A DNA stretch of 64,000 nucleotides from Cyclobacteriaceae bacterium (GTDB lineage Bacteria > Bacteroidota > Bacteroidia > Cytophagales > Cyclobacteriaceae): positions 372,001 through 436,000 of the forward strand of contig JAHBTX010000001.1 in assembly GCA_019638395.1 (NCBI GenBank). The letters run 5' to 3'. Positions 23,309 through 39,730 of this stretch are shown piece after piece (within the stretch, counting starts at the first letter, position 1; the number at the start of each line of letters is the position of its first letter). The notes beneath the pieces were generated by a model. The model did not search any database and was not told where the DNA came from. It worked only from the letters and a program-made list of their open reading frames with translations. The position numbers and the translations under genes were made by a program.

Positions 23309-24628
23309 CTATTTTTTTGTTTGAATTTTCTTTCTAATAAACGCGCCTAATGCAGCCCCCTCTACTTTTCCAACTTCACATGCAGGTGTATAATGAATTC
23401 CACCATAAAAACGACTTACTGCAGCCTCATCAGCAGCATGTTTAAAAGATGTAAACGACCGAGGCTTCAGCCCAAATTCAATCTCTGTTGAATCGGTAAA
23501 AGCAAACGAATCTCCAAAAACTCCGGTAAGTGCATCTGCTGCGGCTGCAGAAATTACACTGTGTCCACTGGTATATTCAGGAAATGGCGGAGTTTGCAGC
23601 GTGGGTACCCAGTTCTCGTCAATATATTGATTGATGTACGTTTCAGGACGAATTAAAAGACTTCTATACTTTTCGTCCCAGCAACTAATAAAGCCATCCA
23701 CCAATGACAATGCAACGCGCACATAAGCCTCAGCAGATTTTACAACACCTGCATTTGATTTACGGCATGCGGTTGCAGTGATATTAATCCAATGGCCACC
23801 GGGTGATATTTTTTTTGTAGCAAACATCACATGTCCTTTTACATTCATCATAAAAGGGTTGCAGTCCCAGAAGAAGGCTATTTCGCGTTGCTCATCAGTT
23901 AGCTTATTACCAGCTTCATAAACAGCATAAGCTTCCTTATAAAAATCACTTCCTTTAACAGAAGAGAACGGTGTAGGTGGCGGGGGTGCGAACTGAGCCG
24001 CTGAGTCAATCACAAAAGTTCTGATTTTATTCCAGTGGGGCTCTACAGCATCCATGTATGCCGGTGGCGTTGGCTTCCAGGTTGCCGGATTGTTAGAGAT
24101 AGAATATTTCGGAAATGACCGTGATTGTTTATAGTTGTCTTTTGAAGACCATGCCAGTACATGGTCGGCCACCTTATTGCCATACTCGATGGAGCGATGC
24201 AGTACATCTGGTGGCACCTCAGCCTCTTTAATTTCTTGCATTAGTTGCGCATAGTATGCATCCATTTTATCCTCAGAAAATACCAAGGTACGACCTACTT
24301 TAAACATAGCTTGCATAGAGGCTATTGGATAGCAATATTCAAGACCAGCCTCAGGCTTAGGTACCTCAGTTAGTCCATTAAGCTGACCAGCCAGTGAAAT
24401 ATAGGAGCTATCCTGATGGATACCGGCTTCGTAGGCCGCAATTGTAGAATAGGCATAAATACGACTGGCAACAGGCGGAGAAAAGATATCGTGAACAATT
24501 ACATCTGTGATTTGCTTGAGCGTGCGGTGGAGGAATTCGGGTTGTTGAACCTTGTACTTATATTCGCTGGAAATGTTATTGCAAGAGATAAGTATGAAAA
24601 TAACAACTAAATACCGAACTGATTTCAT
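23309..24628 (-). CDS. Vanadium-dependent haloperoxidase-like lipoprotein (PAP2 fold)
   Basis: The 439-residue protein has a lipobox (FILISC, Cys16), so it is a lipoprotein. The acid-phosphatase/haloperoxidase motifs are KYRSLLIRPETY (K-x6-RP), YTSGHSVISAAA (the PSGH motif with Thr for Pro, His356) and SRFYGGIHYTP (SRxxxGxH, His412). The aspartate that normally follows four residues after the last His is replaced (H-Y-T-P-A), so the vanadate or phosphate pocket may differ. Either a haloperoxidase or a phosphatase is possible. It is downstream of, and co-directional with, the CRTAC1-like trio, from which a hairpin and a promoter box separate it. Confidence 0.8.
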   Translation of the reverse strand: MKSVRYLVVIFILISCNNISSEYKYKVQQPEFLHRTLKQITDVIVHDIFSPPVASRIYAYSTIAAYEAGIHQDSSYISLAGQLNGLTEVPKPEAGLEYCYPIASMQAMFKVGRTLVFSEDKMDAYYAQLMQEIKEAEVPPDVLHRSIEYGNKVADHVLAWSSKDNYKQSRSFPKYSISNNPATWKPTPPAYMDAVEPHWNKIRTFVIDSAAQFAPPPPTPFSSVKGSDFYKEAYAVYEAGNKLTDEQREIAFFWDCNPFMMNVKGHVMFATKKISPGGHWINITATACRKSNAGVVKSAEAYVRVALSLVDGFISCWDEKYRSLLIRPETYINQYIDENWVPTLQTPPFPEYTSGHSVISAAAADALTGVFGDSFAFTDSTEIEFGLKPRSFTSFKHAADEAAVSRFYGGIHYTPACEVGKVEGAALGAFIRKKIQTKK

Positions 24629-24656
24629 TTTACTAAAATTTATATATGCGTTATAA

Positions 24657-24677
24657 AATTAGAACGAAGTTCTAATT
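24657..24677 (-). terminator. Hairpin between the CRTAC1-like operon and the haloperoxidase-like gene
   Basis: AATTAGAAC and GTTCTAATT pair perfectly (9 bp) around a 3-nt loop and, on the minus strand, run into TTTTATAA. It may be a weak terminator for the CRTAC1-like genes. It also falls about 10 nt downstream of the start expected from the box at 24692-24699, so it could instead be a leader hairpin. Confidence 0.5.
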
Positions 24678-24691
24678 ATGGTATAGAAAGT

Positions 24692-24699
24692 CAAAATTA
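24692..24699 (-). promoter_or_regulatory. Candidate -7 box of the haloperoxidase-like gene
   Basis: On the minus strand TAATTTTG is a perfect TAnnTTTG. CTG, one base from TTG, lies 18 nt upstream. The gene starts 63 nt downstream. Confidence 0.4.
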
Positions 24700-24724
24700 T
24701 TATATAAGTCTATGGAACAGAAAG

Positions 24725-27700
24725 TTAGTTATTTTTAAATGCTAAGATTGAATCATTATTGCGCGCCACCAAGTACAATTTACCATTCATAGTCTTCAAT
24801 GATTTAATTTGGCGTCCTTCCCCCATAGTAACAAAACCCGACTTTAATGGCGGAATTGAATTAAAATTACCTTGTCCGTCTCCTATCAACATTAAACCAA
24901 CACCTGCGTCATAAGATCCAAAATCAGGTTGGGTTGCACTAAAGTTTCCAGATAAGAGTAAATCTTCATATCCATCATGATTTAAATCCGAAATCTCAAT
25001 AGCAAATACAGGAAAATATTGAGCCTCCATTGGTAACGGATTAACTTTATAAGAATCTCCATCCGAAAGGAGTAAAACAGACCTTAATTCTTCAATACTC
25101 ATTCTGGCTGAGTTTCCCTTTTGATTTGGGCTGATAATATCTTCAAGTTTTACATCACGGTACGATTTATAATTAGGAAATTTTTTCTTTAACATAGGTA
25201 TCTGCTTTATCAGTTGATCTCGTGATGCGAAAGGATAGTTTCGATCGTTATTGTAGTAAACCAAAATATGATCCGATCCTCCATTTGAATCAAAATCACC
25301 TACATACATAAGAAGTGGCTTTACCAAACTGGCTCTCACTCTTGAATTAAGTCCTAGGTTTCCAATAACAAAATCAGGTTTACCATCTTTATTAAAATCG
25401 GAAGATTGTATAACGTTCCAGAACCCATTTGTTTTCTCAAAACCAAACTCATTAGTTATATTCAAAAAGCTATGGTCAGGGTTCTGAATTAGAATTGTAA
25501 TGGGCATCCACTCACCTACCAGTATCAAGTCGGGTAGTTCATCTAAATTGATATCCTTCCAAATTGCATCCTTTACCATACCAGGCCGAATTCGGGTTGG
25601 ATTATTAAATACGCTAGTACCGAGCCAATTGATTGCGGGTTCATATATACCCTTTCCATTATTAACCATAAGATAGCTAACTGGGCTCATTCCATAAAGA
25701 AAGGGCATTACAGATGCCCCAATAAACAAATCAATATCACCATCTAAATCATAGTCCTGTGGTTTCACGCAGGAGGCGTTTATAAAAATATTTGTAAATG
25801 CATGAGGCGAATATTGAAAATATCCCTTCCCGTTATTTAGATAAAGTCTTGGTGCAATTCTGTCGCGTTCATCCTTTGCTTCGTGTCCGCCAGCTACTAT
25901 GATCAAATCCAAATCATGATCACCATCTGCATCAAAAAAAGCGGCATCCACATCTTCTGAATCCTTATGTAGCGTAAAATCTGAAGATGTTAACAGTCTG
26001 AAAGTTTCATTTTTTTCTTGAACATAAATTGAACCAGCTTGCCCTTTCGCACCACCGACAAAAAAATCATCGAGTCCATCGCCATTAATATCACCCACTG
26101 CTAAACATGGGCCTTCTTTCGTTAGCATATGTGGAATAAGAGATTCACGATTAAAAGCATTAAAATCATCTTCATAATGAAGAATTGGCAGGATTGAAAA
26201 AGGTTGCAGTATTACTCCTTGATTATGAATTGCCGAGTAAATTTTATCGGGATTGTATTGGATAGATACGGTACCCGGTCGAACAACTGTATCTTGTTGA
26301 AATCCACCCGGCCATACTACTTTAATAAGCACAGAATCTACATTTGCACCCAGTCCAAAGGAAAGTGAATAGTCGGATGAAGAATACCACCCACGTGTTG
26401 GATATAGTTCTTGAACCTGTTCAATATCATTGGCTTTTACGATAACTTTTGTACCGATACCGAATTTATTAGCCTCTAGAGAATTCGCCAGTAATTTCAC
26501 TTTTACGAATTTATTTACATTTGAATTATTTCTATAGACAAGTGCTTCCTCATTAATTTGATTTACAACTAAATCAAGATCACCATCATTGTCTAAATCG
26601 CTATAGGCAGCACCTGTAGAAAACCCAGGTAGTTCCAAACCCCATTCGAAAGTTTCGTCTATAAAAGTGAGGTTTCGGTTATTTTTAAAAATAAAATTAC
26701 TCACTTTTCCTGGAGGCATTAAACTTAAGAGATGGTTAGCATCCAGTTGTGAATTTTGGGACGAATCATTATTTATAAAATTGATATAATCTAGGTCATT
26801 AGGCCTTCTAACAATTCCATTTGATATAAATAGATCTTTAAAGCCATCTCCATCAAAATCTGCTACCAAAGGGCACCAACTCCAATCTGTAGCTTCAATT
26901 CCAGCCACCTGTGCTATGTCGGAGAAAACCAACCTACCAGAGTCAATTGTACCACGATTTAACTGAAAAGTATTTCTTGATACTTGTTTACCATAGCCAA
27001 AACTTAATTTGAATTTATATACTTCATAGCTATCTTCACCGGCTGAAGTTTTAATTACTGCTTCATCTCGTGGTAGCATATCTGTTGTAATTATATCCGG
27101 CCATAAATCATTATTGACATCTGCAATTTCGTTACCCATACTAAATCTGCTTGTATGCGCTAAACTCAAAATACTTGTTTCCTTAAAGGATCCATCTCGT
27201 TGATTTATATATAGATAGTCATTTTCATGAAAGTCGTTTGAAACATAGATGTCAGGAAATCCATCGCGATTTAAGTCAGAAATTCCAATACCTAAGCCAT
27301 AACCAATTTGGCTCGATAGAATCCCTGATGATTGAGTAACATCAATAAATTTTGTGATGCCGGTTTCAATAAGTTGATTTTTAAACAATTTATCACCGGC
27401 TAAGGAGTCTTCTTGGTAACGAAGTTTAGCCTGACCATATGAACGAGCTGAATGAACTGAATGGTTAAGCAAATACATATCAAGATCACCATCGAGGTCA
27501 TAGTCAAAAAAAGCAGCTTGAGTTGAAAAACCTTTAAAGTAAATTCCTAATTCAACGCTACTTTCTGTAAAGGTTAGGTCGCCATTATTAATAAAGAGTT
27601 GATTGTATCCATTAAACTTTTTGTAATTTCCAACCCCACAAACATAGATATCCAACCAACCATCGGCATTTACATCAGCCATTGTCACTCCAGTTGTCCA

Positions 27701-28051
27701 GTTTCCCTCACCTTCAACTCCGGCTTGCCTTGCTATATTCCTAAACTTGAAATTTCCTTCATTCAAGTATAATGCATTTTTTCCCTGGTTGCTAGTAAAG
27801 TAAACATCAGGCAGACCATCATTATTAATATCGCCAATAGAAACCCCACCACCATTGAAGAAATATAAATATTCAATAATGTTGAAATCATCGTTTTCAA
27901 GTAAAGTATTACTAAAATTAATGGCTGTTTGATCAGACGTAAGTAAAGAGAATAGTTTGTCTTTATTTTCATTCGTTACATTAGTGCAACTCTTTGCCAG
28001 TAAGCCCAAGGCTATAACTAAAATATTCAGACAACTCGCTTTAGAGCCCAT
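24725..28051 (-). CDS. CRTAC1-like lipoprotein with FG-GAP/VCBS repeats and ASPIC/UnbV domain (third paralogue)
   Basis: A 1108-residue protein with a lipobox (LLAKSC, Cys22). It is built from beta-propeller-type FG-GAP/VCBS repeats, each with a calcium loop such as DINNDGLPD (from residue 74), DVNADGWLD, DLDNDGDLD or DLNHDGYED. The repeats form two blocks separated by an ASPIC/UnbV domain at about residues 530-600, recognisable by RGWYSSSDYSLSFGLG and VVWPGG. The family-specific MYVGDFDSNGGSDH is in the second block. Such domains suggest extracellular binding of ligands or protein partners; no enzymatic motif is visible. Its start overlaps the end of the second paralogue by 11 bp. Its function is unknown. 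Confidence 0.85.
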   Translation of the reverse strand: MGSKASCLNILVIALGLLAKSCTNVTNENKDKLFSLLTSDQTAINFSNTLLENDDFNIIEYLYFFNGGGVSIGDINNDGLPDVYFTSNQGKNALYLNEGNFKFRNIARQAGVEGEGNWTTGVTMADVNADGWLDIYVCGVGNYKKFNGYNQLFINNGDLTFTESSVELGIYFKGFSTQAAFFDYDLDGDLDMYLLNHSVHSARSYGQAKLRYQEDSLAGDKLFKNQLIETGITKFIDVTQSSGILSSQIGYGLGIGISDLNRDGFPDIYVSNDFHENDYLYINQRDGSFKETSILSLAHTSRFSMGNEIADVNNDLWPDIITTDMLPRDEAVIKTSAGEDSYEVYKFKLSFGYGKQVSRNTFQLNRGTIDSGRLVFSDIAQVAGIEATDWSWCPLVADFDGDGFKDLFISNGIVRRPNDLDYINFINNDSSQNSQLDANHLLSLMPPGKVSNFIFKNNRNLTFIDETFEWGLELPGFSTGAAYSDLDNDGDLDLVVNQINEEALVYRNNSNVNKFVKVKLLANSLEANKFGIGTKVIVKANDIEQVQELYPTRGWYSSSDYSLSFGLGANVDSVLIKVVWPGGFQQDTVVRPGTVSIQYNPDKIYSAIHNQGVILQPFSILPILHYEDDFNAFNRESLIPHMLTKEGPCLAVGDINGDGLDDFFVGGAKGQAGSIYVQEKNETFRLLTSSDFTLHKDSEDVDAAFFDADGDHDLDLIIVAGGHEAKDERDRIAPRLYLNNGKGYFQYSPHAFTNIFINASCVKPQDYDLDGDIDLFIGASVMPFLYGMSPVSYLMVNNGKGIYEPAINWLGTSVFNNPTRIRPGMVKDAIWKDINLDELPDLILVGEWMPITILIQNPDHSFLNITNEFGFEKTNGFWNVIQSSDFNKDGKPDFVIGNLGLNSRVRASLVKPLLMYVGDFDSNGGSDHILVYYNNDRNYPFASRDQLIKQIPMLKKKFPNYKSYRDVKLEDIISPNQKGNSARMSIEELRSVLLLSDGDSYKVNPLPMEAQYFPVFAIEISDLNHDGYEDLLLSGNFSATQPDFGSYDAGVGLMLIGDGQGNFNSIPPLKSGFVTMGEGRQIKSLKTMNGKLYLVARNNDSILAFKNN

Positions 28052-31000
28052 TACTTAATTTAAAAAATAAGGGTGAATCATTATTGCGTGCAACCATTAC
28101 ATAAATAGTATCATTAATTTTAATTTTTTTTAAATCTCGAATTTGCCCGTCAACAAAAAATCCACTTTCATTAGCGCCCTTTGTTACGAATGTACCATCA
28201 CCTCTACCCGACAAAAATAAACCATAACTTGCATCGTATCTACCAACTTCTGGTTTGGCTTCATATAGATTACCACCCAAGAGTACATCCAGATTCCCAT
28301 CCCCATTGAAGTCATCAACAAGCAATGCATATATGGGTGAAAATTGAGCTTCTATTGGAAAAGGGTTGAATAAAAATGAACCATTATTATTTATAAATAC
28401 ACCAGACCTTAATTCAACTACATTCAATTTTATTGCAGCGTTCAAAGACTCCTTTTCAAAAATCTTATCTATTGATTCGTTTTTAAAATCCTCGTACTTC
28501 AGATATTTCTTCTTAAGCATTGGCATTTGACTGGTTATATCATGCCGTAGTGCAATGGGGTAATCTTTACCCAGTATGCTTAAACAAACAACTTGCTCCG
28601 TTGTACCGTTTTTATCAAAATCATTTACATACATTGATAAAGGTGAGTTTAAAGTAGCACGAAATCTAGAATTTAAACCATGATTTCCAACAACTAAATC
28701 TACATCCCCATCATTATCAATGTCTGCTATACTAAGTGTGGACCACCAGCCAGTGGTTTTTTCAAGACCTAATTCTTTGGTTGAATTTTCAAATTCGCCA
28801 TTAATATTTAAAAAAACCATTACACTTAAATATTCACCAACAACAATCAAGTCCATTTTTTTATCTCCATTAATGTCGGCCCAGGCTGCATCGGTAATCA
28901 TACCAATGTTAAGTAGTTCTGGAGCAACTACGCTAGTAACATCAACAAACTCTCCTTTGCCATTATTTTGTAAAATATAACCATTAACAGGAAAACCGTA
29001 TCTAAAAGATTGGGATCTAACACCAACAAATAAATCCTGATCGCCATCATTATCATAATCTGCATTTATAACAACAGATGTGTTTTCAAATTTATATGTG
29101 GGTAGGGTCTGATCAGACTTAGTGAATTGACCATTCCCTTGATTTAAATAAAGTCTGTCAGCTAGCGTACCTGACACTTCCGTAAACTCGTTACTTCCGC
29201 TACAAACATAGAGGTCCACATCCCCATCACCATCAGCATCGAAGAAAATACTCTTTAAATCTTCTGAAGGTGCATCTAATATAAAAGGAATAGTATCAAA
29301 AGAAAAATTCTTTTCTGATTGATAAAATAATGATCCACTTTGTCCCTTTGCTCCACCTATAAAAACATCTTCAAGTCCGTCATTGTTAACATCTGCAACT
29401 GACAATGACGGACCCATCGTACTCATCATATGAAATATAAGCTTATCCCTATCAAAATCGACAAATTCACTTTCACGATGAATGTAATCAAATTTTATGG
29501 GCGTTAAGGTAAACAACTTGATTTGATTTTTTGGTTTGGGCTGTACCTTATCAACTGCTTTGTCTTGTTCAAGCACCAGCGTTTGATTTGTTTGTACATC
29601 AACCAACCTGGTTATTTTTCCATCCGGCCAGCTTACGAGTATTGAATCCACTTTTTGTAATTTTCCTAAACCCAGGAAAGGCCTAAGGTCAACAGAAGAT
29701 TCAAAGCCTCTATTGGGCATTTGTTCAACTATAAATTGGTTACTACCTTCAAAAACCTCTATAGAAGTTCCGACTGCATTTATATTCTTCTTAGTACCTT
29801 TAAGGACAAACGAAAGATATCTATTAAATGGTAACTGCTTATTGCTTTTATTTCGATAGATTGAAGCAACCTGATTTACATGACTCACTATTAAATCCAA
29901 GTCACCGTCATTATCAAGGTCTGCATAAGCAGAGCCATTTGAAAAGTTAGGAGTACCAAGCCCCCACTCCAGAGCCTTATCTGCAAAACTAAAATTACCA
30001 TTGTTCTTAAAAGCAAAATTTGGAATTGGATTGGAGGGAATTATTTCAACAAGTTTTTTATAGTTTACACGATCTCCAGATACTATAGATTTTACAACCT
30101 CTTCATTTGATACATACTGAAGGTAATCCTGATTGGTAAGGTCCTGGTAAATTCCATTGGCAACAAAAATATCCTTAAACCCATCGTTATCCATATCAAA
30201 CAGAAGTGCACCCCAACTCCAATCTGTAGCTTCTGTATTGGTAAGCCTGCCAATTTCACTAAATGTATTGTTGTGGTTATTCAATTGAAGCATGTTGCGC
30301 GTAAACTGATGGTAATAGTCATTTGATATGTTGTATTGATACCGATCCCAACTTTCAAATGTTGTTACTGTTTTAAGTCTGGAATAATCATGGGGGAGCA
30401 TCTCTGTTACAAATATGTCAAGCCAACCATCATTATTTATATCGGCCAAATCTGCGCCCATGGAAGCCCCACTTATGGACTTCATTTGCTTGGTAAGGCA
30501 TTCGGTAAACGTCCCGTTCTTATTATTTAGGTACAAATAGTCACGTTCAAAAAAATCGTTTGAAACATAAATGTCTGGCCAGCCATCTTTATTTATATCG
30601 CCAACCGTTGCGCCTAAACCGAATCCAATTATACTTCCATAAATCCCTGCTTCTTCGCTCACATCTGTAAACACATTTCCATCATTTCGCATCAATTTAT
30701 CACCTCCCAACTTATCCCTGTTGGGTCGTTCATTTTTCATTAAATTAAATGAGCCGATAGCCTGGTAAGAATTATTTAAGATATAAACATCTAAATCGCC
30801 ATCTCGATCATAATCAAAAAAAACAGCATGTGTGGTGAATCCACTATCAGCAAGACCAAATTCACTCGCTCTTTCTGTAAATGTTAAATCTCCATTATTG
30901 ATATACAACTCATTTTCCTTATCATCACCCATAATATCGCCTGAGTTGCAAACATAAATATCTAACCATCCATCACCATTCACATCAGCAATTGCTACCC

Positions 31001-31346
31001 CTGTGGACCATGCTTTTCCGCCAGCAACTCCAGCGCTTTCTGTTATATCTGTAAACTTTAAATCCCCTTCATTAAGGTATAATCTATTTTTTTCTTGATT
31101 ACCTGTAAAATAAATATCAGCCAGATTATCATTATTAAAATCACCAATACCAACACCACCACCATTGTAAAAATTACGATATGTGTAGATATTAAATTCT
31201 TGACTAAAGGAAAGGTCGTTTCTGAAAAAAATTCCGGTCGAATCAGGATTTAATAACTGGAACAAAGTTTGAGGTTTTTCTTTATAAGTACAAGAAACCC
31301 ATGCAGTACTTAAACAGAAAAGAAGAAGCCTAAAAATTAAACGCAT
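28041..31346 (-). CDS. CRTAC1-like lipoprotein with FG-GAP/VCBS repeats and ASPIC/UnbV domain (second paralogue)
   Basis: The 1101-residue protein has the same plan as its neighbours: lipobox (TAWVSC, Cys19), first repeat block starting at YNGGGVGIGDFNNDNLADIY, ASPIC/UnbV domain near residues 535-605 (RGFESSVDLRPFLGLG, VSWPDG), and a second repeat block. Many repeats carry Ca-binding DxDxDG-type loops (DINKDGWPD, DMDNDGFKD, DADGDGDVD, DYDNDGDQD). The MYVNDFDKNG motif is conserved. It follows the small lipoprotein gene by 8 nt and overlaps the next paralogue. I infer surface or periplasmic location from the lipid anchor. Confidence 0.85.
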   Translation of the reverse strand: MRLIFRLLLFCLSTAWVSCTYKEKPQTLFQLLNPDSTGIFFRNDLSFSQEFNIYTYRNFYNGGGVGIGDFNNDNLADIYFTGNQEKNRLYLNEGDLKFTDITESAGVAGGKAWSTGVAIADVNGDGWLDIYVCNSGDIMGDDKENELYINNGDLTFTERASEFGLADSGFTTHAVFFDYDRDGDLDVYILNNSYQAIGSFNLMKNERPNRDKLGGDKLMRNDGNVFTDVSEEAGIYGSIIGFGLGATVGDINKDGWPDIYVSNDFFERDYLYLNNKNGTFTECLTKQMKSISGASMGADLADINNDGWLDIFVTEMLPHDYSRLKTVTTFESWDRYQYNISNDYYHQFTRNMLQLNNHNNTFSEIGRLTNTEATDWSWGALLFDMDNDGFKDIFVANGIYQDLTNQDYLQYVSNEEVVKSIVSGDRVNYKKLVEIIPSNPIPNFAFKNNGNFSFADKALEWGLGTPNFSNGSAYADLDNDGDLDLIVSHVNQVASIYRNKSNKQLPFNRYLSFVLKGTKKNINAVGTSIEVFEGSNQFIVEQMPNRGFESSVDLRPFLGLGKLQKVDSILVSWPDGKITRLVDVQTNQTLVLEQDKAVDKVQPKPKNQIKLFTLTPIKFDYIHRESEFVDFDRDKLIFHMMSTMGPSLSVADVNNDGLEDVFIGGAKGQSGSLFYQSEKNFSFDTIPFILDAPSEDLKSIFFDADGDGDVDLYVCSGSNEFTEVSGTLADRLYLNQGNGQFTKSDQTLPTYKFENTSVVINADYDNDGDQDLFVGVRSQSFRYGFPVNGYILQNNGKGEFVDVTSVVAPELLNIGMITDAAWADINGDKKMDLIVVGEYLSVMVFLNINGEFENSTKELGLEKTTGWWSTLSIADIDNDGDVDLVVGNHGLNSRFRATLNSPLSMYVNDFDKNGTTEQVVCLSILGKDYPIALRHDITSQMPMLKKKYLKYEDFKNESIDKIFEKESLNAAIKLNVVELRSGVFINNNGSFLFNPFPIEAQFSPIYALLVDDFNGDGNLDVLLGGNLYEAKPEVGRYDASYGLFLSGRGDGTFVTKGANESGFFVDGQIRDLKKIKINDTIYVMVARNNDSPLFFKLSNGL

Positions 31347-31354: not shown

Positions 31355-31966
31355 TTACTTTGTTATTGAATGCTTATAGGCTGGATGAAGTATATCCTGA
31401 ACTTTAACAACCACATTCTGCTCATCTTTTATATACACTATAAGCCTTCTGTTCCCATCGAGCTTTACTGGTAAAATCCGATCATCAAGCTTAACACTAA
31501 CAAAGGAATTACCCTTGTACCATACCATCAGTATATCTTGTACTTTCTTAATTAATTGATCAGACTGATATACGGTATTCCAAGGGGCCCATGCTGCATA
31601 ACTAAATTCAAGATTTACCTCTTTGATTACATCATTTTCATCAAAAGCAGGTATAAAAAGTAATCTAATAGATGTTGGCTGCTCGTGAAACAGAGAATCA
31701 GAAAAAAAATATTGAACTGTAGCTCCGTTGGGACCTTGTGTAACCAGTTGTTGTTTATTTAACTCAAAACATCGCCCATAAAATTCATCACGAGTATCTC
31801 CAAGGTTGATTCCCAATATGACAGAATCTATCCTGATGTTTTTGCTTAGTTCTGCTTTTACTAATCTTGTGTAGTCAGATTGAGTGCAAGCATTAATTAA
31901 AATAATTAAGCAACAAAACTTAATTGCATAATTTAAATATTTCGAGATTGTCATCATGTTTTGCAA
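31355..31966 (-). CDS. Small lipoprotein of unknown function between CRTAC1-like genes
   Basis: A 203-residue protein with a hydrophobic N-terminus and lipobox (LIINAC-type, Cys27). The mature part shows alternating strands and ends with short beta segments (VKLDDRILPVKLDGNRRLIVYI). I do not recognise the family. Its 5' end overlaps the 3' end of the first paralogue by 47 bp if the first ATG is used; in-frame ATGs at 31957 and 31954 shorten the overlap. The overlap implies translational coupling and a shared role with the large lipoproteins. Confidence 0.65.
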   Translation of the reverse strand: MQNMMTISKYLNYAIKFCCLIILINACTQSDYTRLVKAELSKNIRIDSVILGINLGDTRDEFYGRCFELNKQQLVTQGPNGATVQYFFSDSLFHEQPTSIRLLFIPAFDENDVIKEVNLEFSYAAWAPWNTVYQSDQLIKKVQDILMVWYKGNSFVSVKLDDRILPVKLDGNRRLIVYIKDEQNVVVKVQDILHPAYKHSITK

Positions 31967-34900
31967 ATAAAATTAATTTTTCATTTTTACATTCAATGTA
32001 CTGAATATCTCTAACCTGCCCCTTAATACCTAAAGACCTGCCCTCGTCAAATTTAAAGGTATTATCAACCAATCTACCTTTAAAGAAAAAGCAATCAGAC
32101 GCATCGTAGCGCCCAAACTGAGGTTTTACCTGATATTGATTACCCCCGGTAATCATATCTAGCACACCATCGTTATCCAAATCTTGTAATAGTATTGCAT
32201 ACACAGGTGAGTATTGGGCTTGTTGTGGTAGTTCAAAAATTTTATAACCTGCCGGGCTTGAAATAATAAAAATGGAAGCCAATATCCTTGTTTCAAATTT
32301 GGTTGATTCTACTAGAACTGTACTTCCGAAAATCTGGTCCATCGATTTATCTTTGTAATCTTTATAATAAATCAATGATTTCTTCAGAGATGGTATTTGT
32401 GATAGCAACTCGTCCTTATCAAGTATCGGGTAATATTTATCATTTATTTCTGTACAAAAGATATGCTCAACAGAGCCATTGGAATCAAAGTCATTTACAT
32501 ACATCCTGTCTCCCGGCTTAAAAAAGCTATTCAAACCATGGTTTCCTAATACAAAATCCGGATACCCATCTTGATTCAAATCGGCTGTTTCAATTGTATT
32601 CCACCAACCTTCTGTATCGTTAAAGGTCAGTTTACTGGAATCATTAATAAAATAACCTACGTTATTCTTCAAAGCTGTCACAGCCATCCAATCACCTACC
32701 ATTACTAAATCGTCCCATCCATCTCCGTCATAATCAACGATCACACCATCCGTAATCATTCCAGCGTTGATTAAATCAGGAGCATATTTTATTGTTACAT
32801 CCGCGAACCTACCTCTACCATCGTTCTGTAATAGATAAGCTCTGCCACCATAACCATAGTTAAACGGGTCAAACCGAACAGCCACTATCAAATCCTGGTC
32901 ACCATCTTTGTCAAAATCAAAAGCCTTAACAAAACTTGTGGCTATATTTGGAATCGGTAGCGGAATATCAGATTCTTGGAATTTATCCGCACCGGTATTT
33001 ATCATCAACCTGTCTGTTTGGGCGGAAGAAATTAGTGGGAAGAACCGACCCCCGGTCGCAAAATAATAGTCCAAATCTCCATCACCGTCTGCATCAAAAA
33101 AACTACCTTGTGTCTCTTCTGGTAACCCGAAAACATTCCTTTCAAATGGTTTGCTTTTCATTATTCGTCCATTGTCGAATGTGATCAGCGTACCGGCCTG
33201 ATCTTTACCGCCACCCAAATAAATCTCATCAATTCCATCTCCGTCTATATCCGCTTTCATCAACGAGGGCATTTCGTTACTATACATAAATGGCAGAAGT
33301 CGATCACGATTAAAATCAGAAAAACCTGAACCGGCATGTTTGGTCGTTGAATCAATTTTCTGAATACAAAAAGAACTTGACAACTTTTCTGCTTTGACAG
33401 ATTTCAGAAAACGTTTTTCAGACTCATATTCCACAACATAGTTTCTATTTGCATTTAGATTATAAGATACTGTTTGGGAACCATCTGGCCAGACTATTAT
33501 AGCAGAATCAATCAGCACTAACTTTCCCAACCCCAAAGTTATCCAAGGTTGTACTGAACTTTGATATCCTCTTACTGTATAATTATCTCCTGAAATTAAG
33601 CGTCCACCTGCGTAAGCATATAGACTTGTGCCAACCATGTTAACATTGAGGGTTTTAGAAGTAAATATAAATCTAACACTTTTAAAGGTAGCGGTGTCTG
33701 TATTATTTCTGTAAACAATTGCCGGAGCATTGATATTGCTTAAAATCAAATCAAGGTCTCCATCGTTATCGAGATCACCATATGCAGCACCACTGGAATA
33801 CATGTGAGTATTAAAGCCCCATAAGTTCGATACATTTCTAAATTTAAAATTTCCTTCATTATGGAAGGCATAATTGGAGAAATGGGATCTTGGCATTGAT
33901 TCAATTAATTTAATAATTCCATTCTCCCTATCCTTAAGTAATTCTCTCATCACTTCATAATTTCCGGAATAACTTAAGTAATCTCTATCCAATAAGTCTT
34001 TATATATTCCATTTGCAATGAATACATCGCGTAATCCATCATTATCTGCATCAAAAAGTAATGCCCCCCAACTCCACTCCGATGCAGCCAAACCTGCTAG
34101 CCTACCAAGTTCTTTGTAGTTCCCGTCTATAGATTTTTTTTGCAGTGTATTTCGGATAAATTGGAAATGATATCCATTATTAACTGCTTCCTTATACTTA
34201 TCCCAACTATCAAAGTGAATTTTCGATTTTCTTCTTGCTAATGAATCTGGAAGCATCTCTGTAACGAATAATTCATTAAGTCCGTCACCATCAAGATCAG
34301 CAAAATCAGCTCCCATTGAGCCTGCACTTATAGATTCAAAATATTCCGGGAGCGCCTCAATGAATCCGCCATTTGTATTGTTGATATACAGGTAATCGCG
34401 TTCAAAAAAATCGTTAGAGATGAAAATATCTACCCACAAGTCATCATTAAAATCACCCAAAGTTATTCCAAGTCCAAAACCAATATCACTCCTATATATT
34501 CCAGCTTGTTCGGTATAATCTTCATATTTACCATTGTTATTAATAAAGAATTTGTTCCCACCATTTTCCTGGTCAGGAATATTTCTTCTACCTTCAATTA
34601 AATCAAAATTACCTACCGATTTGAAAGAGTTTGTTAGAAGATAGCAATCTAAATCTCCATCGCGATCATAATCAAAAAAAGCCGCCTGCACCGACAATCC
34701 GATTATATCTAATCCAAACTCTGCTGAGCGTTCAGTAAAAGTTAAATCGCCATTATTGATAAATAGTTCATTGTGCCGCTTAGATGTAACAGGAGGCCCT
34801 GATTTACACACATAAATATCTAAAAAACCATCAGCATTAATATCAACCATGGTAACTCCGGTTGACCACGCTCCATCGCTCGCAACGCCAGCTTCAATTG

Positions 34901-35195
34901 TTATATCCTTGAATTGCAAGTTACCTTGATTGAGATACAGTTTGTTTTCAACTTGGTTACCCGTAAAAAACACATCTAATAAACCGTCATTATTAATATC
35001 ACCAATAGCAACTCCAGCACCATTGAAAAAGTTACGATACGTGTAAGGATTTAACTCAGGAGTATAATTGAGCTCGTTTATAAATCTTATCCCGGTTTGA
35101 TGGGTTACATCATTAAACAGTGGAACCTCACGGATATTTGTAGAACACCCTGTTAATAGTATATATAAGAGTAACCCTAACAACCAAGTTCTCAT
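31920..35195 (-). CDS. CRTAC1-like lipoprotein with FG-GAP/VCBS repeats and ASPIC/UnbV domain (first paralogue)
   Basis: The 1091-residue protein has a short signal with lipobox (ILLTGC, Cys17). The first repeat block begins at FNGAGVAIGDINNDGLLD. Further calcium loops are DINADGFLD, DYDRDGDLD, DFNDDLWVD and DADNDGLRD. The ASPIC/UnbV domain is near residues 535-600 (RGYQSSVQPWITLGLG, IVWPDG), and MYVNDFDSNG is in the second block. It is the first gene after susD. A terminator lies between them, and a TATGTTTG box ends only 4 nt before this ATG, so it may have its own leaderless transcript. Ligand and role are unknown. Confidence 0.85.
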   Translation of the reverse strand: MRTWLLGLLLYILLTGCSTNIREVPLFNDVTHQTGIRFINELNYTPELNPYTYRNFFNGAGVAIGDINNDGLLDVFFTGNQVENKLYLNQGNLQFKDITIEAGVASDGAWSTGVTMVDINADGFLDIYVCKSGPPVTSKRHNELFINNGDLTFTERSAEFGLDIIGLSVQAAFFDYDRDGDLDCYLLTNSFKSVGNFDLIEGRRNIPDQENGGNKFFINNNGKYEDYTEQAGIYRSDIGFGLGITLGDFNDDLWVDIFISNDFFERDYLYINNTNGGFIEALPEYFESISAGSMGADFADLDGDGLNELFVTEMLPDSLARRKSKIHFDSWDKYKEAVNNGYHFQFIRNTLQKKSIDGNYKELGRLAGLAASEWSWGALLFDADNDGLRDVFIANGIYKDLLDRDYLSYSGNYEVMRELLKDRENGIIKLIESMPRSHFSNYAFHNEGNFKFRNVSNLWGFNTHMYSSGAAYGDLDNDGDLDLILSNINAPAIVYRNNTDTATFKSVRFIFTSKTLNVNMVGTSLYAYAGGRLISGDNYTVRGYQSSVQPWITLGLGKLVLIDSAIIVWPDGSQTVSYNLNANRNYVVEYESEKRFLKSVKAEKLSSSFCIQKIDSTTKHAGSGFSDFNRDRLLPFMYSNEMPSLMKADIDGDGIDEIYLGGGKDQAGTLITFDNGRIMKSKPFERNVFGLPEETQGSFFDADGDGDLDYYFATGGRFFPLISSAQTDRLMINTGADKFQESDIPLPIPNIATSFVKAFDFDKDGDQDLIVAVRFDPFNYGYGGRAYLLQNDGRGRFADVTIKYAPDLINAGMITDGVIVDYDGDGWDDLVMVGDWMAVTALKNNVGYFINDSSKLTFNDTEGWWNTIETADLNQDGYPDFVLGNHGLNSFFKPGDRMYVNDFDSNGSVEHIFCTEINDKYYPILDKDELLSQIPSLKKSLIYYKDYKDKSMDQIFGSTVLVESTKFETRILASIFIISSPAGYKIFELPQQAQYSPVYAILLQDLDNDGVLDMITGGNQYQVKPQFGRYDASDCFFFKGRLVDNTFKFDEGRSLGIKGQVRDIQYIECKNEKLILFAKHDDNLEIFKLCN

Positions 35196-35207: not shown

Positions 35208-35236
35208 AAAAAAGCGCCTGAATGTATCAGGCGCTT
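35206..35236 (-). terminator. Rho-independent terminator after susD
   Basis: AAGCGCCTGA and TCAGGCGCTT pair perfectly (10 bp) around a 5-nt loop, followed on the minus strand by seven T residues. It lies 21 nt after the susD stop and 11 nt before the first CRTAC1-like ATG. Confidence 0.85.
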
Positions 35237-35257
35237 CGATAAGATTTTGAAACTAAT

Positions 35258-36796
35258 TTAGTAACCAGGGTTTTGCGTTAATGGATTTGGTGTACCGGCA
35301 GTTGCATTTATTTGCTCAATTGGAATTGGCATCAAAATCTGATGCGGCTTACCACTTGTGTTAGGTTTTTCCCACCATGCATTTGACCAAGCACCGAAGC
35401 GTATTAAATCCGTTCTCCTAAGTGCCTCTTGAAATAACTCACGACCACGTTCAGCCAAAATAACACCTTCGTCTAAAGATGGAAGATTGGCAACACCAGC
35501 TCGAGCCCGCAACAAATTAATTGTAGTTAGACCACCACCATTTTTTCTAAATTCTGCTTCTGCTTTATTAAGAAGTACCTCACCAAGACGCAGCAACGGG
35601 AAATCATTATCAGCATCATTGAGTTGGCCTCTCTTAAAGTTGAACTTACCTAATCTTGCTCCAGCCTGCCTTGAACCACTTGGTGCCAATTGATTAATTC
35701 TTGGTGTGTAGTTGATAGGAGCGCCATCTTCATCGTCTGGATCAAACGCCAAATCAAGAATCGGTAAACCATTAAGGTCAAACTGTGGACCCACTATGAA
35801 GTTCTGAGCTCTACGCTTATCGGTAGCGTCATACGAATTGTAAAATTCTTCCAATGTCGAGTAACCATTCCAAGGTTGCTCTCTTAAATCATAAGTCAAT
35901 TGACTTGGATAATGAAGGGTCATCATTGCGAAGTTCATACCTCCACCTGTAACCTCATCGAAAGGAGCTACAAAAATATGCTCTGCTGCTTCTACGTTAT
36001 CCGGATCAAAGACATCTTTATATTCAGGATCTAAAGAATAGAGGCCGGAATTAATAACCTCATCGGCTGCTGCAATTGCCGCATCTAAATCGGCAACATC
36101 ATGATTGGCCAGGCCCTTATAAACTTTGGCATTCAAGTATAATCTGGATAGCAGGGCATATGCAGCAAATTTGTTAGCCCTTCCATACTCTTGTTTTCCA
36201 GAAGGTAAATCTGGTATTGCAGCCAGCAACTCAGTCCTTACGAAATTATAAACATCAATGCGTGAGGACTGTGGCACATCTACTAACGGTTGAGTAGTAA
36301 TTTTTACTCGTCCGAAAGTATCTAACAATCTCCAGTAAAAAAAGGCTCGTAGAAATCGCAACTGAGCTTTCGCTGCAGGTGTTGAAACTAAAGGATCCGT
36401 GCTGGCAAGTAATACATTACATTGTGTAATTCCTCCGTAACTATCATTCCAAGCACCATTTATTCCCCCAACTTGTGGATCGAATTCATGCCTATGCATC
36501 CGTAACCAAATTCCACCATCAAACCAGTCACCTCCTTTTTGGGTAATCACGGCCTCATCACTAGATACCTCCTGAACAGAGAAATACCCACCATGGTTGG
36601 CAGTACCATTTAATACTCGATTAAAAGCAGCTCCTAAACCATCATTAGGAGTAGGCTTATTAGTATTAACTGTACCAAATTGAGTAGTTGGAAAATTTGC
36701 ATTAAAATCACCCTTTAACTCTTCATCTAAATCTGTACATGCTGTAACAAACATCACTATTGCAAGTACACTTAGTAATCTCCATATCTTTTTCAT
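35258..36796 (-). CDS. SusD/RagB-family nutrient-binding lipoprotein
   Basis: The 512-residue protein has a lipobox (MFVTAC, Cys20) and the SusD layout of an N-terminal TPR-like helical domain and a C-terminal ligand-binding part. Family landmarks are the RFLRAFFYWRLLDTFG stretch, the RANKFAAYALLSRLYLNAKVY helix and the C-terminal FPLLRLGEVLLNKAEAEFRK with ELFQEALRRTDLIRFGAW. It sits on the cell surface as the lid of the partner SusC transporter, encoded 18 nt upstream. The ligand cannot be read; the neighbouring LacI, GH31 and GH65 genes suggest an alpha-glucan oligosaccharide. Confidence 0.92.
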   Translation of the reverse strand: MKKIWRLLSVLAIVMFVTACTDLDEELKGDFNANFPTTQFGTVNTNKPTPNDGLGAAFNRVLNGTANHGGYFSVQEVSSDEAVITQKGGDWFDGGIWLRMHRHEFDPQVGGINGAWNDSYGGITQCNVLLASTDPLVSTPAAKAQLRFLRAFFYWRLLDTFGRVKITTQPLVDVPQSSRIDVYNFVRTELLAAIPDLPSGKQEYGRANKFAAYALLSRLYLNAKVYKGLANHDVADLDAAIAAADEVINSGLYSLDPEYKDVFDPDNVEAAEHIFVAPFDEVTGGGMNFAMMTLHYPSQLTYDLREQPWNGYSTLEEFYNSYDATDKRRAQNFIVGPQFDLNGLPILDLAFDPDDEDGAPINYTPRINQLAPSGSRQAGARLGKFNFKRGQLNDADNDFPLLRLGEVLLNKAEAEFRKNGGGLTTINLLRARAGVANLPSLDEGVILAERGRELFQEALRRTDLIRFGAWSNAWWEKPNTSGKPHQILMPIPIEQINATAGTPNPLTQNPGY

Positions 36797-36814
36797 AGAA
36801 TCTTAATTTATAAG

Positions 36815-39730
36815 TTAAAATCCAACGTTAACTCCAATCGTAAATGTACGTGCAAAGAAATAGGTATTTCTTCTATCGACACCCGTTATCAAAGGATTGT
36901 TATTATCCTCCGGATCGCCAAAAACAGGCTCAGGATCAATTCCAGTATATTTGGTAAGTACAAATGCATTCTGAACAGTTGTATAAAACCTAACGTTTCT
37001 GAAACTATTGGAATTAGGTAGATTAAGTCTATACCCTAGTGTTATATTATCCAACTTTAAGAAATCAGCTTTTTCTACATACAGAGAGCTGTACTTTGCC
37101 TCTGTTAATCCAGCAACTGCCTTGCTTGTAATAACACGATTGTATGAATTGATCGCACCAGGGTCCAGTGGCTCATAAAAACCTCGGAATTGATTAATCA
37201 AGCTATGACCAAATGCACCTCTGAAAAACACATTCAAATCCCAGTTTTTATAATTCAACTGGTTAGTCCAACCTATTTCCATAGTTGGAAAAGCCTTACC
37301 AAGTTCTTTAAAGTCAGCATCGGCAAGCAGGGCCTGACTGGCATCACCTTTAATAACACCATCTCCGTTTAAGTCTTTAAATACTACCTTTCCATTGATT
37401 CCATCTACCTGAACTCGGTCAAATACAGGCCCCCAAATTGTTCCTAATTTCTTTCCAACCTCAACTAAGTTAAAGGGTGTTCCATTTTGACCTGGTGAAC
37501 CAAAGTTTCCAGTAATAAACCGGGTATTGAAAAATTCAGTCAATTCGGTTGAGTTGGTACTTAAGACAACACCAGGATTCCATTTCACCTGACCTATGTT
37601 AACTGCACTGTAGTTCAATGCTACTTCAAGTCCTTTGGCACGCAATGCTCCAACATTCTCAAACCTCCTACCCGAAACGAATACCGCTACGTCCACGTCT
37701 CGTTCTAGAATAAAATCTTTGATGTTCCGAACAAAGAAATCGACTGAACCTGTAAGCTTACCTCCAATACCAAAGTCGATTCCTATATTAGTTTCTTCTT
37801 TTTGTTCCCACTTCAAATCTGGGTTTGCATTTCTTGCAAAATTGGTGGTATAGTTGTTTCGATTAAATGTGTATAAATCCTGGGCAAGACCTGACGCTGT
37901 TGGAAGCGATCCTGTAACACCAAAACCTGCACGGAATTTTAATAAATCTACTTTGGGAATATCAACATACTTGGATATATCAACCCCTAAACCAAATGCA
38001 GGAAAAACACCCCATTGGTTATTTTCTCCCAATTTAGTTGAACCTTCCCGTCTTACAGAAGCATTAAAGTATATGCCTTTGTCAAAGGTTAAATTAGCTC
38101 GACCAAAAAAGGCAATAATTCTATTGTCAGGACTTTGAATGCTACTGACATTCGGCCGAGTACCACCTAAGGTAAAGTCCGATGCCTGCTCAAGTTGGTT
38201 GTATCCAAGTTGATCATTTTGAAAGCCTCCAGCCTCTATAAATATTTCTTCGTAATTATCTTGTTGAAAGGAGTAACCAGCTGTTACATCTAAATTAATT
38301 TTTCCAAACTCTTTCTGATAAGTACCCCAACCCTCAAATAATGTAAAATCAGATTCAGATGTGAATCTGCGCGCCAAGCCTTTTCTATTCAAACCTACAA
38401 AGAACGAATTCCTTGAAAAGTAAGTACCGTTGAAATTATTTTCGAATTGTCTAGCAAAGTTTGCCGTTAAAGTTAGATTCTCCAGAACGCTGTAATCAAC
38501 TCTCGCACTGTAATTAATTGTTTTGCGTTTTCCGTCTGCTATATTCTGTTCTAGAATTGCAACTGGATTAAAGTTATCAAACAATATGGCTTGATAAAAA
38601 TCTCCATTAGGAAAACGAATCGGGGCAGTTGGATTGAACAAAACCGCATAACGAAGTGCTTCGTTAAACGAAAAATCGCTCCTTCTATCAGTAGAGGAAA
38701 AGCCGAAATCAAATTTCAATTTATTATCGAATGCACTATGTGATATATTAGTACGAACATTCACCTGATCAAATCCGGACTTTCTGAGAATTCCATTTAC
38801 ATTCCTGTAATTGATTGAGGCTCGGAATGATGTATTTTGTGTACCAGAAGCTATTGCAAGATTGTGAACATTTGAAATGCCTGTCTGCGTAACTTCATCC
38901 TGCCAATCTGTTTGTGACCCTAAATCATTACCTCCTGCTGCAACATATTCACTTGCTGTCATAACAGGTTGTCTCCTTGATACCTGATCAGCGGCAACAT
39001 AACCGTTATAATCAACAGTCGCTTTTCCTTTTGAACCTCGTTTGGTGGTTACAAGGATAACACCTGCTGACCCCCTACTTCCATAAATAGCAGCAGCCGA
39101 TCCGTCCTTTAAAACATTGATTGACTCAATGTCATTAGGATCTACGTTGTCCAATGAAGCTCCAAGAACTCCATCTATAACAATTAAAGGTTGCGAGTTT
39201 GACCCTATTGTAGAAATACCTCGAAGCCTGAAAGTTGCTGATGAATTGGGGTTTCCACCTCTGTTATAGATACTGAGACCAGGTACTTTACCTTGCAGAA
39301 GTTGCCTTGGATCGTTCACGTTTCCGCGGTTGAATTGATCTGCCGAAAGCGCAACCACAGAACCAGTTATTTCCTTTTTGTCTTGACTTCCGTAACCTAC
39401 AACCACAACCTCACTTAACGATGTAACATCAGACTGAAGTGTTACATTAAGAACACTTTGACCACCCACTGATACTTCCTGAGCTGCATACCCCACAAAT
39501 GAAAATACCAAGGTAGCGTTTGCTCCTACGTTGATTCTAAAATTTCCGTCTGAATCAGTAACGGTTCCATTGGATGTACCCTTTTCAAGCACATTCACGC
39601 CTGGAATTCCCGAGCCATCATCGGCAGCGGTTACCTTACCTGTTACGGCTTGTTGAGCGAAACTTGTTAAAGCTCCGAAAATCAACGCAACCGTAAGGCA
39701 CCTGCGAACTAACAGATACAATTTAATCAT
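36815..39730 (-). CDS. SusC/RagA-family TonB-dependent transporter
   Basis: The 971-residue outer-membrane protein starts with a signal peptide ending TSFAQ. A carboxypeptidase-regulatory-like domain follows (VTGKVTAADDGSGIPGVNVL, about residues 28-105), then the TonB-box-like SEVVVVGYGSQDKKEITGSV, the plug with ISTIGSNSQPLIVIDGVLG and GSAAAIYGSRGSAGVILVTT, and a 22-strand barrel ending in ARTFTIGVNVGF. It imports ligands bound by SusD using TonB energy. It is divergent from a LacI-type gene with two palindromes in the shared 227-bp region. A candidate promoter is at 39826-39855. Confidence 0.93.
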   Translation of the reverse strand: MIKLYLLVRRCLTVALIFGALTSFAQQAVTGKVTAADDGSGIPGVNVLEKGTSNGTVTDSDGNFRINVGANATLVFSFVGYAAQEVSVGGQSVLNVTLQSDVTSLSEVVVVGYGSQDKKEITGSVVALSADQFNRGNVNDPRQLLQGKVPGLSIYNRGGNPNSSATFRLRGISTIGSNSQPLIVIDGVLGASLDNVDPNDIESINVLKDGSAAAIYGSRGSAGVILVTTKRGSKGKATVDYNGYVAADQVSRRQPVMTASEYVAAGGNDLGSQTDWQDEVTQTGISNVHNLAIASGTQNTSFRASINYRNVNGILRKSGFDQVNVRTNISHSAFDNKLKFDFGFSSTDRRSDFSFNEALRYAVLFNPTAPIRFPNGDFYQAILFDNFNPVAILEQNIADGKRKTINYSARVDYSVLENLTLTANFARQFENNFNGTYFSRNSFFVGLNRKGLARRFTSESDFTLFEGWGTYQKEFGKINLDVTAGYSFQQDNYEEIFIEAGGFQNDQLGYNQLEQASDFTLGGTRPNVSSIQSPDNRIIAFFGRANLTFDKGIYFNASVRREGSTKLGENNQWGVFPAFGLGVDISKYVDIPKVDLLKFRAGFGVTGSLPTASGLAQDLYTFNRNNYTTNFARNANPDLKWEQKEETNIGIDFGIGGKLTGSVDFFVRNIKDFILERDVDVAVFVSGRRFENVGALRAKGLEVALNYSAVNIGQVKWNPGVVLSTNSTELTEFFNTRFITGNFGSPGQNGTPFNLVEVGKKLGTIWGPVFDRVQVDGINGKVVFKDLNGDGVIKGDASQALLADADFKELGKAFPTMEIGWTNQLNYKNWDLNVFFRGAFGHSLINQFRGFYEPLDPGAINSYNRVITSKAVAGLTEAKYSSLYVEKADFLKLDNITLGYRLNLPNSNSFRNVRFYTTVQNAFVLTKYTGIDPEPVFGDPEDNNNPLITGVDRRNTYFFARTFTIGVNVGF

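Follow-up and report, generated by a model that had tools for sequence, protein, structure and literature searches.

A block of seven genes on the minus strand of a 64,000-nucleotide stretch of DNA from a Cyclobacteriaceae bacterium (assembly GCA_019638395.1, contig JAHBTX010000001.1, positions 372,001 to 436,000; hereafter the window, whose own numbering is used throughout) codes for a SusC/SusD pair, three large lipoproteins resembling cartilage acidic protein 1 (CRTAC1; here CRTa, CRTb, and CRTc, together the CRTs), a small lipoprotein (smLP), and a lipoprotein of the vanadium haloperoxidase family (VHPO). The block is a real and conserved module within a known kind of system, the Sus-like polysaccharide utilization loci (PULs) of Bacteroidota. 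Judging from gene content and sequence relatedness, it may tentatively be read, with somewhat less than even confidence, as the outer-membrane half of a locus that is controlled by a LacI-family regulator and serves the use of alpha-glucosides, most likely malto-oligosaccharides, and in which the CRTs and smLP would serve as accessory subunits of SusCD that mostly face the periplasm. The genes of the block are the following (aa, amino acids; ORF, open reading frame).

36815..39730, minus strand: susC, TonB-dependent transporter, 971 aa (TIGR04056, 653.9 bits, over cut-off; Plug and barrel domains)
35258..36796, minus strand: susD, lid lipoprotein, 512 aa (PF07980, PF14322; acidic export signal after the Cys, CTDLDEE)
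31920..35195, minus strand: CRTa, CRTAC1-like lipoprotein, 1091 aa, position 1 (FG-GAP_3, UnbV_ASPIC; position-1 group in trees)
31355..31957, minus strand: smLP, small lipoprotein, 200 aa when started at the ATG (31957; the ORF itself opens with a TTG at 31966)
28041..31346, minus strand: CRTb, CRTAC1-like lipoprotein, 1101 aa, position 2 (FG-GAP and UnbV_ASPIC domains; best match in the PDB CRTAC1, 9etn)
24725..28051, minus strand: CRTc, CRTAC1-like lipoprotein, 1108 aa, position 3 (domains; position-3 group in trees)
23309..24628, minus strand: VHPO, vanadium-haloperoxidase-family lipoprotein, 439 aa (PAP2 domain; match to 4cit/4usz)

Place, strand, and identity of all seven ORFs (susC, susD, three CRTs, smLP, and a PAP2 lipoprotein) agree with a preliminary description made from the sequence alone, and the calcium loops it reported on both sides of the UnbV domain are seen, as DxDxDG-type loops, in all three lipoproteins of nearly equal length. 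The coding overlaps it listed held only in part: the 11-bp overlap is real (28041-28051) but joins CRTb and CRTc, the 47-bp overlap between CRTa and the smLP ORF exists only from the TTG start and amounts to 38 bp from the ATG at 31957, and smLP is not nested with an overlap to CRTb, from which its ORF is separated by a gap of 8 bp. The top solved match of SusD is SusD 3ck7 (103.8 bits), followed by 3jys (100.1).

Conservation of the gene order and of the three CRT positions

The order susC-susD-CRTa-smLP-CRTb-CRTc(-VHPO) is repeated in several Bacteroidota families, as seen in three sets of loci containing smLP, namely 18 from the genus and order, 71 named loci, and 28 from a draw across the phylum (triple counts below follow this sequence). 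Genes were labeled by BLAST best hits of simply called ORFs to proteins of the window and its relatives, and misses were marked with a question mark. Within genus and order, smLP occurs in 20 of 58 genomes, in a single place each (in three pieces in genome G023); 40 stretches around CRT, smLP, or VHPO matches include 18 with smLP, 14 of which have susC at most four genes upstream. Among GTDB species genomes, 79 named loci were identified, including Flavobacteriaceae, Saprospiraceae, Cytophagales, and Bacteroidales, and 71 of them carry smLP; this set comprises the best 80 of 563 confirmed candidates and is hence biased to CRTb orthologues. The phylum draw covered 392 Bacteroidota genomes at least 90% complete, of which 30 (16 of 178 genera, the window's own genome included) match the smLP profile once each, and smLP was labeled in 28 of the 29 remaining places. 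CRTs immediately flank smLP on both sides in 15/18, 64/71, and 23/28 loci, the exceptions (L095 and L114, at a stretch or contig end, and L119, L145, L148, L157, L171, L174, L183, L185, L246, L251, L257, L259, and L260) representing partly altered orders and partly unlabeled or cut ORFs, while susD lies at most four genes upstream in 15/18, 60/71, and 17/28. Carriers of the complete operon include Maribacter polysaccharolyticus (L144) and Fulvivirga lutimaris (L133). A variant lacking smLP (L087, L088, L089, L099) consists of susC-susD, two or three CRTs, and then a GH65-like ORF and VHPO.

The tie between CRTs and SusD is also evident at the genome level: in seven hand-chosen genomes, 22 of 29 CRT clusters lie at most 12 kb from a SusD match, against 2.75 expected (the count covers 39 of 45 CRT genes, takes SusD by PF14322 alone, and leaves out the CRT-free genome G030), as does each of the three CRT clusters in the genome of the window. 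Correlations of distances among susC, susD, the CRTs, and smLP over 40 loci are all positive (0.57 to 0.84); such values are expected of co-inherited genes, and they were not used to name contacts. The preliminary description had tied its reading to the neighborhood recurring in other genomes, and the search over Bacteroidota indeed finds the block conserved outside the genus.

The three CRT copies keep their places as well. A quick tree of 78 CRTs from genus and order places position 1 in a group of 17 rows (support 82) and position 2 in one of 18 (support 86), both modest values, and position 3 in one of 16 (support 100), with the third CRT of G007 and G035 outside. When 182 CRTs from the whole phylum are placed in a FastTree, the four labels (positions 1, 2, and 3, and other) require 7 changes, compared with a minimum of 3 and a shuffled mean of 90.0, and none of 200 shuffles came as low. 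Misplaced among position 2 are the "position 3" CRTs of L138 and L145 and the "position 1" CRT of L167; the labels come from neighbor counting only, smLP is followed by VHPO in L145, and smLP-CRTb is doubled in L167. Position 1 is not one clade in this tree, the window CRTa belonging to a group of 18 and the remaining position-1 rows lying elsewhere, and a singleton CRT (L017) sits inside the position-3 group. Because the copies group by position across the phylum, they are either old or move together as a unit. The grouping fits the earlier proposal of differing, non-redundant subunits, and the CRTs are mostly found with the same position elsewhere and not closer to unrelated singletons. An origin as three unrelated singletons is ruled out by the position-wise grouping in both CRT trees.

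Sugar enzymes, regulator, and operator-like site

Adjacent susC and susD genes together with a co-located regulator and glycan-active enzymes (lacI-GH31 divergent, GH13 and GH65 downstream) give the window locus the make-up of a Sus-like PUL. It is literally true that, as the preliminary description stated, no glycan-degrading enzyme is encoded inside the block, but the statement misleads: GH31, GH13, GH65, and beta-phosphoglucomutase genes surround it, and relatives have GH65 or trehalase genes within or next to the block. The features around the block are listed below (MFS, major facilitator superfamily; GH, glycoside hydrolase family).

39958..41007, plus strand: LacI-family regulator, divergent from susC (domain library matches)
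39901..39912, minus strand: LacI-type operator-like palindrome of 12 bp, GCAAACGTTTGT, between lacI and susC (putative site, conserved in related loci)
41078..43477, plus strand: GH31 alpha-glucosidase (PF01055, 383.9 bits; maltase-glucoamylase and alpha-glucosidase structures; no evident signal peptide, by eye)
43490..44830, plus strand: MFS2, MFS sugar symporter (PF07690; GPH_sucrose match far under cut-off)
21911..23236, minus strand: MFS1, MFS sugar symporter (domain matches; near VHPO in some relatives too)
21152..21856, minus strand: MIP channel, GlpF-like (TIGR00861, over cut-off)
20287-21110, minus strand: HepT/MntA-type toxin-antitoxin pair between the GlpF-like channel and GlpK (both over NCBIfam cut-offs)
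18798..20282, minus strand: glycerol kinase GlpK (TIGR01311, over cut-off)
17173..18795, minus strand: glycerol-3-phosphate oxidase/dehydrogenase, GlpO (DAO, DAO_C; NF008899 just over cut-off)
15985-17172, minus strand: DUF3179 protein, flanked by GlpO and GH13 (also present at this position in L283, with 56% identity)
13719..15356, minus strand: GH13 alpha-glucosidase, oligo-1,6-glucosidase-like (PF00128; best solved matches oligo-1,6-glucosidases)
12789..13703, minus strand: ROK-family sugar kinase (PF00480)
11140..11784, minus strand: beta-phosphoglucomutase (TIGR01990, over cut-off)
8756..11044, minus strand: GH65 maltose phosphorylase (787.8 bits to 1h54, against 434.2 to the next, a kojibiose phosphorylase)

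The regulator gene heads an operon with GH31 and the symporter MFS2, divergent from susC. Past VHPO, the minus strand carries MFS1, GlpF, HepT/MntA, GlpK, GlpO, DUF3179, a PIN protein, GH13, two sugar kinases, beta-phosphoglucomutase, and GH65, whose closest solved GH65 type is maltose phosphorylase. The series MFS1-GlpF-GlpK-GlpO-DUF3179-GH13-ROK-PfkB-beta-phosphoglucomutase-GH65 recurs in window order in L283, beyond four opposite-strand genes past VHPO; no HepT/MntA pair was labeled at the GlpF-GlpK place there.

Relatives carry a GH65 with a signal-peptide-like start between CRTc and VHPO. That of L093 matches the Flavobacterium johnsoniae kojibiose hydrolase with E 1.3e-233, and the three GH65 enzymes tested from this place (L093, L095, and L097, all from genomes of one genus) score 1122-1145 bits with the kojibiose-hydrolase equivalog NF053734 (cut-off 800). 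The L093 enzyme keeps the catalytic or binding residues Glu472, Glu616, Trp391, Glu392, and Thr407 of the F. johnsoniae enzyme FjGH65A (alignment inspected by eye; the numbering is shifted by 3, and Pro575, Ala576, and Phe625 of the FjGH65A paper, PMC10316084, agree with this shift). By score and residues, this kojibiose hydrolase type is present in relatives and not in the window. A trehalase follows VHPO in L091, and L169 has a GH97 as well as a kojibiose-type GH65 upstream. Behind the named loci, GH65 is found in 22 of 38 genomes, 10 of which have it within or close to the operon, with about 0.3 expected by chance on a hand estimate. It lies inside the stretch in L153 and L155, at most about 5 kb upstream of susC or of its divergent lacI in L163, L165, L169, L177, L188, and L205, about 15 kb off and past a susC-susD-SusE-GH13 cluster in L144, and about 18 kb downstream in L127; in the other 12 of the 22 genomes, the gene is far from the operon or on a contig without an established tie to it. 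An enzyme-free locus is ruled out by the GH65 and trehalase genes of relatives and by the beta-phosphoglucomutase and maltose phosphorylase downstream. In the Flavobacteriaceae loci L163 and L165, CRTc is separated from VHPO by genes for an FGGY kinase and a xylose isomerase, yet a maltose phosphorylase is found on the lacI side.

Regulation by LacI is suggested by the operator-like palindrome: GCAAACGTTTGY occurs once in the genome, at the lacI-susC site. Among 25 distinct lacI-susC regions, 16 contain an operator copy with no more than one mismatch; the best copy has two mismatches in 5 others (a related palindrome) and three in the last 4, while a reversed-operator control shows at least three mismatches in all 25; these counts are a description and not an independent test, because the consensus came from such regions. 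At two or three mismatches, the window is no richer in the pattern than shuffled sequences, and exact GCAAACGNTTGY is found 7 times genome-wide, about as often as its reversed control (6). As the exact core and the loose pattern are both near control levels, only the conserved lacI-susC site counts.

Properties of the CRTs, smLP, and VHPO

Each CRT contains a single UnbV_ASPIC domain (residues 521-586 in CRTa, 524-590 in CRTb, and 531-587 in CRTc) plus FG-GAP_3/FG-GAP repeats and thereby shows the arrangement of the CRTAC1 family, an FG-GAP/VCBS propeller followed by ASPIC/UnbV; CRTa-c account for three of the five UnbV_ASPIC matches in the whole genome (27 contigs, 4.78 Mb). The lipidation Cys (Cys19 in CRTb) is invariant in alignments of 21 and of 53 CRTs, and invariant positions are also found outside the DxDxDG loops, such as N263-D264, E267, D269, R350-N351, W376-S377-W378, and H623. 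A profile of 21 CRTs matches CRTAC1 (9etn) in the PDB with E 8.5e-24. The predicted structure of CRTb (predicted local distance difference test, pLDDT, 91.7; predicted template-modeling score, pTM, 0.91) has murine CRTAC1 9etn as its top Foldseek match (E 3e-27), with a template-modeling (TM) score of 0.71 over the target and 0.37 over the query, and the remainder of the model appears as a second run of FG-GAP strands. CRTAC1 shares the FG-GAP propeller plus ASPIC/UnbV but is about half the size of the bacterial CRTs, which add a second FG-GAP half and the lipidation Cys. No enzyme family came over the cut-off for CRTa-c in Pfam, NCBIfam, PDB profile, or Foldseek searches. A paper on anammox enzymes (PMC12758564) describes an FG-GAP protein annotated as CRTAC1 family, whose gene lies between genes for hydrazine-synthase-like subunits; this is a different gene setting, and SusD does not occur in the main text.

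smLP has no match in Pfam or NCBIfam at E 0.01, and its Cys is invariant in an alignment of 59 rows. The predicted structure (pLDDT 94.5) finds no PDB fold at E 0.001, and the fold is left unnamed because its best match, DUF4309 (4ygt; E 0.0033, probability 0.99, TM 0.31-0.40), falls short of this threshold. At L105 (G023), smLP and CRTc are broken into several frames with the other operon genes intact, and the translations contain X, so that an assembly error is possible. At L257 (G373), smLP comes immediately after a GH65 gene, whose product has 59% identity to the kojibiose-hydrolase type, and is followed by a CRT; it lies on the other strand from susC-susD-CRT.

VHPO aligns over nearly its full length with 4cit/4usz (498 bits, E 2e-148), presumably the vanadium iodoperoxidase of Zobellia galactanivorans. 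Its residues K320, R327, S354-G355-H356, R406, and H412, which we take to be the vanadate-holding residues of the superfamily, are invariant in all 15 aligned relatives. VHPO therefore combines the full-length homology and the vanadate-binding residues of a Zobellia-type vanadium haloperoxidase, and its haloperoxidase activity is putative, as homology of this kind cannot separate a haloperoxidase from a phosphatase. In the Zobellia literature, the main text of one paper contains neither SusD nor ASPIC, and that of another neither FG-GAP nor ASPIC. The link of this lipoprotein to the block, already drawn in the preliminary description, is real. VHPO recurs beside the CRT blocks of relatives: it is the commonest labeled gene within four genes after the CRT block (11/18, 26/71, and 5/28 loci), and a same-strand VHPO is present in the fetched stretch of 12/18, 29/71, and 6/28. 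L125 and L274 share a related susC-susD-CRT-VHPO cluster followed by a common protein of about 480 aa (70% identical). The VHPO of L125 and the VHPO and CRT of L274 have signal peptides apparently without a lipid Cys (by eye), and the start of the L125 CRT can also be read as a lipobox.

Membrane side, proposed role, and alternatives

Surface lipoproteins of Bacteroidota are marked by a short acidic signal that follows the lipidated Cys; when this signal is added to a periplasmic outer-membrane lipoprotein, the protein reaches the surface (PMC5080379). A net charge of -2 or lower at positions +2 to +7 after the Cys is found in 76/87 SusD, 37/283 CRTs, 4/106 smLP, 15/59 VHPO, and 7/83 unlabeled lipobox ORFs. 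The lipobox rule missed 53 of 323 CRTs. It also misses window CRTb and CRTc, two proteins additional to those 323 and outside the counted set; inspection by eye shows CTYKEKP in the first and CTNVTNE in the second. The CRTs thus mostly lack the export signal looked for in SusE/F-like surface glycan-binding proteins, and a minority carry signal-like residues. A further locus of the window's own genome (L266, C24:150000-169900) has susC, susD, and a SusE (PF14292, 82.7 bits) with CEDDS ahead of a CRT with CQPKPD and two GH13, which shows that the CRTs do not simply replace surface glycan-binding proteins; CRTs as plain SusE stand-ins are ruled out by this coexistence. L266 is a starch-type second SusCD locus with one CRT. 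The favored placement of the CRTs, smLP, and VHPO is that of mostly periplasm-facing outer-membrane partners of SusCD, as their N-terminal residues suggest.

In the proposed role, the sugar would cross the outer membrane via SusC under the SusD lid, be carried over the inner membrane by the MFS symporters, and be split in the cytoplasm, the last step being proposed because the window GH31 has no evident signal peptide. The three CRTs and smLP would form a fixed accessory set of SusCD that is tethered to the outer membrane, mostly on its periplasmic side, and receives or organizes the imported sugar; in relatives, the signal-peptide GH65 or a trehalase lipoprotein would act on the periplasmic side, and VHPO may work on the same side, as haloperoxidase or as phosphatase. 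An alpha-glucoside PUL is the best-supported role in the window lineage, the evidence for it being good but indirect. Several observations weigh against this role or its parts. The window GH13 is also over the cut-off of the phosphotrehalase subfamily NF008183, 16 of the 38 genomes are without any GH65, and some loci have no labeled enzyme in the fetched stretch. The neighboring enzymes vary: L137 has GH127, L163 an FGGY kinase and a xylose isomerase (over cut-off), L156 an amidase, L138 DUF5695, and L135 a 3-keto-disaccharide hydrolase. A maltose pathway also leaves the glycerol genes beside VHPO in the window, L143, and L283 unexplained. The same regions supplied both the operator consensus and the counts made with it, 4 of 25 being no better than the control, and the export signal was defined in genera other than those studied here (PMC5080379). 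Two adjacent acids occur in 56/283 CRTs and 8/59 VHPO, compared with 4/83 unlabeled lipobox ORFs, and C-X-K-(D/E)2 in 13/283 CRTs; being somewhat above the unlabeled background, part of the CRTs and VHPO may be exported. As the enzymes differ between loci, alpha-glucoside use may apply to the window lineage and to some others without extending to the entire family, and the module may serve several sugars.

The preliminary description suggested that the CRTs may replace the usual surface glycan-binding proteins, an idea that the mostly signal-bearing SusD, the mostly signal-free CRTs, and the SusE beside a CRT in L266 do not favor. A version in which CRTs at the SusE/SusF place present a calcium-dependent ligand to SusCD, as BtuG does for BtuB, is rather unlikely, although the CRTs are lipidated, rich in propellers, and adjacent to SusCD, and their signal-like residues exceed the unlabeled set. 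Propeller lipoprotein lids of TonB-dependent transporters do exist, the vitamin B12 system BtuBG pairing the two (PMC10404256), but there a single surface propeller is itself the lid, and the ligand is another. Apart from the charge counts (76/87 SusD versus 37/283 CRTs) and the CEDDS and CQPKPD starts within one genome, the apparently lipid-free signal peptides of the L274 CRT and VHPO and the L125 VHPO also argue against surface presentation. It is improbable that the CRTs are instead carbohydrate-active enzymes of an undescribed two-propeller family, with three copies for different linkages: the invariant positions off the DxDxDG loops and the many loci without a labeled enzyme in the fetched stretch would fit, but CRTa-c match no enzyme family over the cut-off, and their nearest structure is CRTAC1, for which we know of no enzyme activity.

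Two further alternatives concern the substrate. Glucosylated glycerol, as a compatible solute or glycolipid head group to be split into glucose and glycerol, would account for GlpF, GlpK, and GlpO after VHPO/MFS1 in the window and L283, GlpK and GlpO after VHPO in L143, and GlpF in L133, and the GH65 family includes a glucosylglycerol phosphorylase. This substrate is nevertheless quite improbable, given that the window GH65 scores 787.8 bits to maltose phosphorylase versus 266.1 to 4ktp, presumably the glucosylglycerol enzyme, that MIP, glpK, and glpO are each labeled in 1 of 71 named loci within four genes after the CRT block, and that glycerol use can be an independent neighbor. More remote still is a locus centered on VHPO, which would halogenate or dephosphorylate the true ligand (phenolic, phosphorylated, or sulfated) for import of the product by SusCD. 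The frequency of VHPO after the CRT block and its invariant vanadate ligands speak for it, but a same-strand VHPO is present in only 29/71 named and 6/28 phylum-draw loci, and sugar genes are the recurrent kind among labeled or Pfam-scanned neighbors. Nothing in the analysis points to the sulfated, phosphorylated, or polyphenolic ligand suggested in the preliminary description.

Compared with known systems, the window locus shares with Sus-like PULs the SusC/SusD pair, a local regulator, and surrounding glycoside hydrolases and sugar transporters, and differs in its LacI control, the three CRTs with smLP, VHPO, and the lack of a SusE/F-type protein in the block. The branched-dextran locus FjDexUL of F. 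johnsoniae is likewise an alpha-glucan PUL, and among solved structures its kojibiose hydrolase FjGH65A comes nearest to the GH65 found in relatives of the window locus; its gene order, SusR-SusC-SusD-SusE/F-GH66-GH31-GH97-GH65, is different, and the words haloperoxidase and VCBS are absent from the main text (PMC10316084). Searches of the open-licence literature aimed at the combination of SusCD, CRTAC1-like proteins, and haloperoxidase found no description of it. A broader and doubtful proposal is that Bacteroidota possess a second Sus architecture, normally in a single copy per genome (against this, one genome contains both L138 and L167), in which SusCD is served from the periplasm by a fixed set of three two-propeller calcium lipoproteins together with an smLP without a close structural match, often joined by a vanadium peroxidase, as an outer-membrane cargo-handling platform.

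SusCD systems rank among the major sugar importers in a large phylum of bacteria, and knowledge of their accessory proteins comes mostly from a small number of gut species. An ordered accessory set across environmental lineages, together with a candidate operator and a sugar prediction, makes roles of CRTAC1-like proteins and VHPO in bacteria testable. If the CRTs do face the periplasm, models of SusCD transport would need a receiving side.

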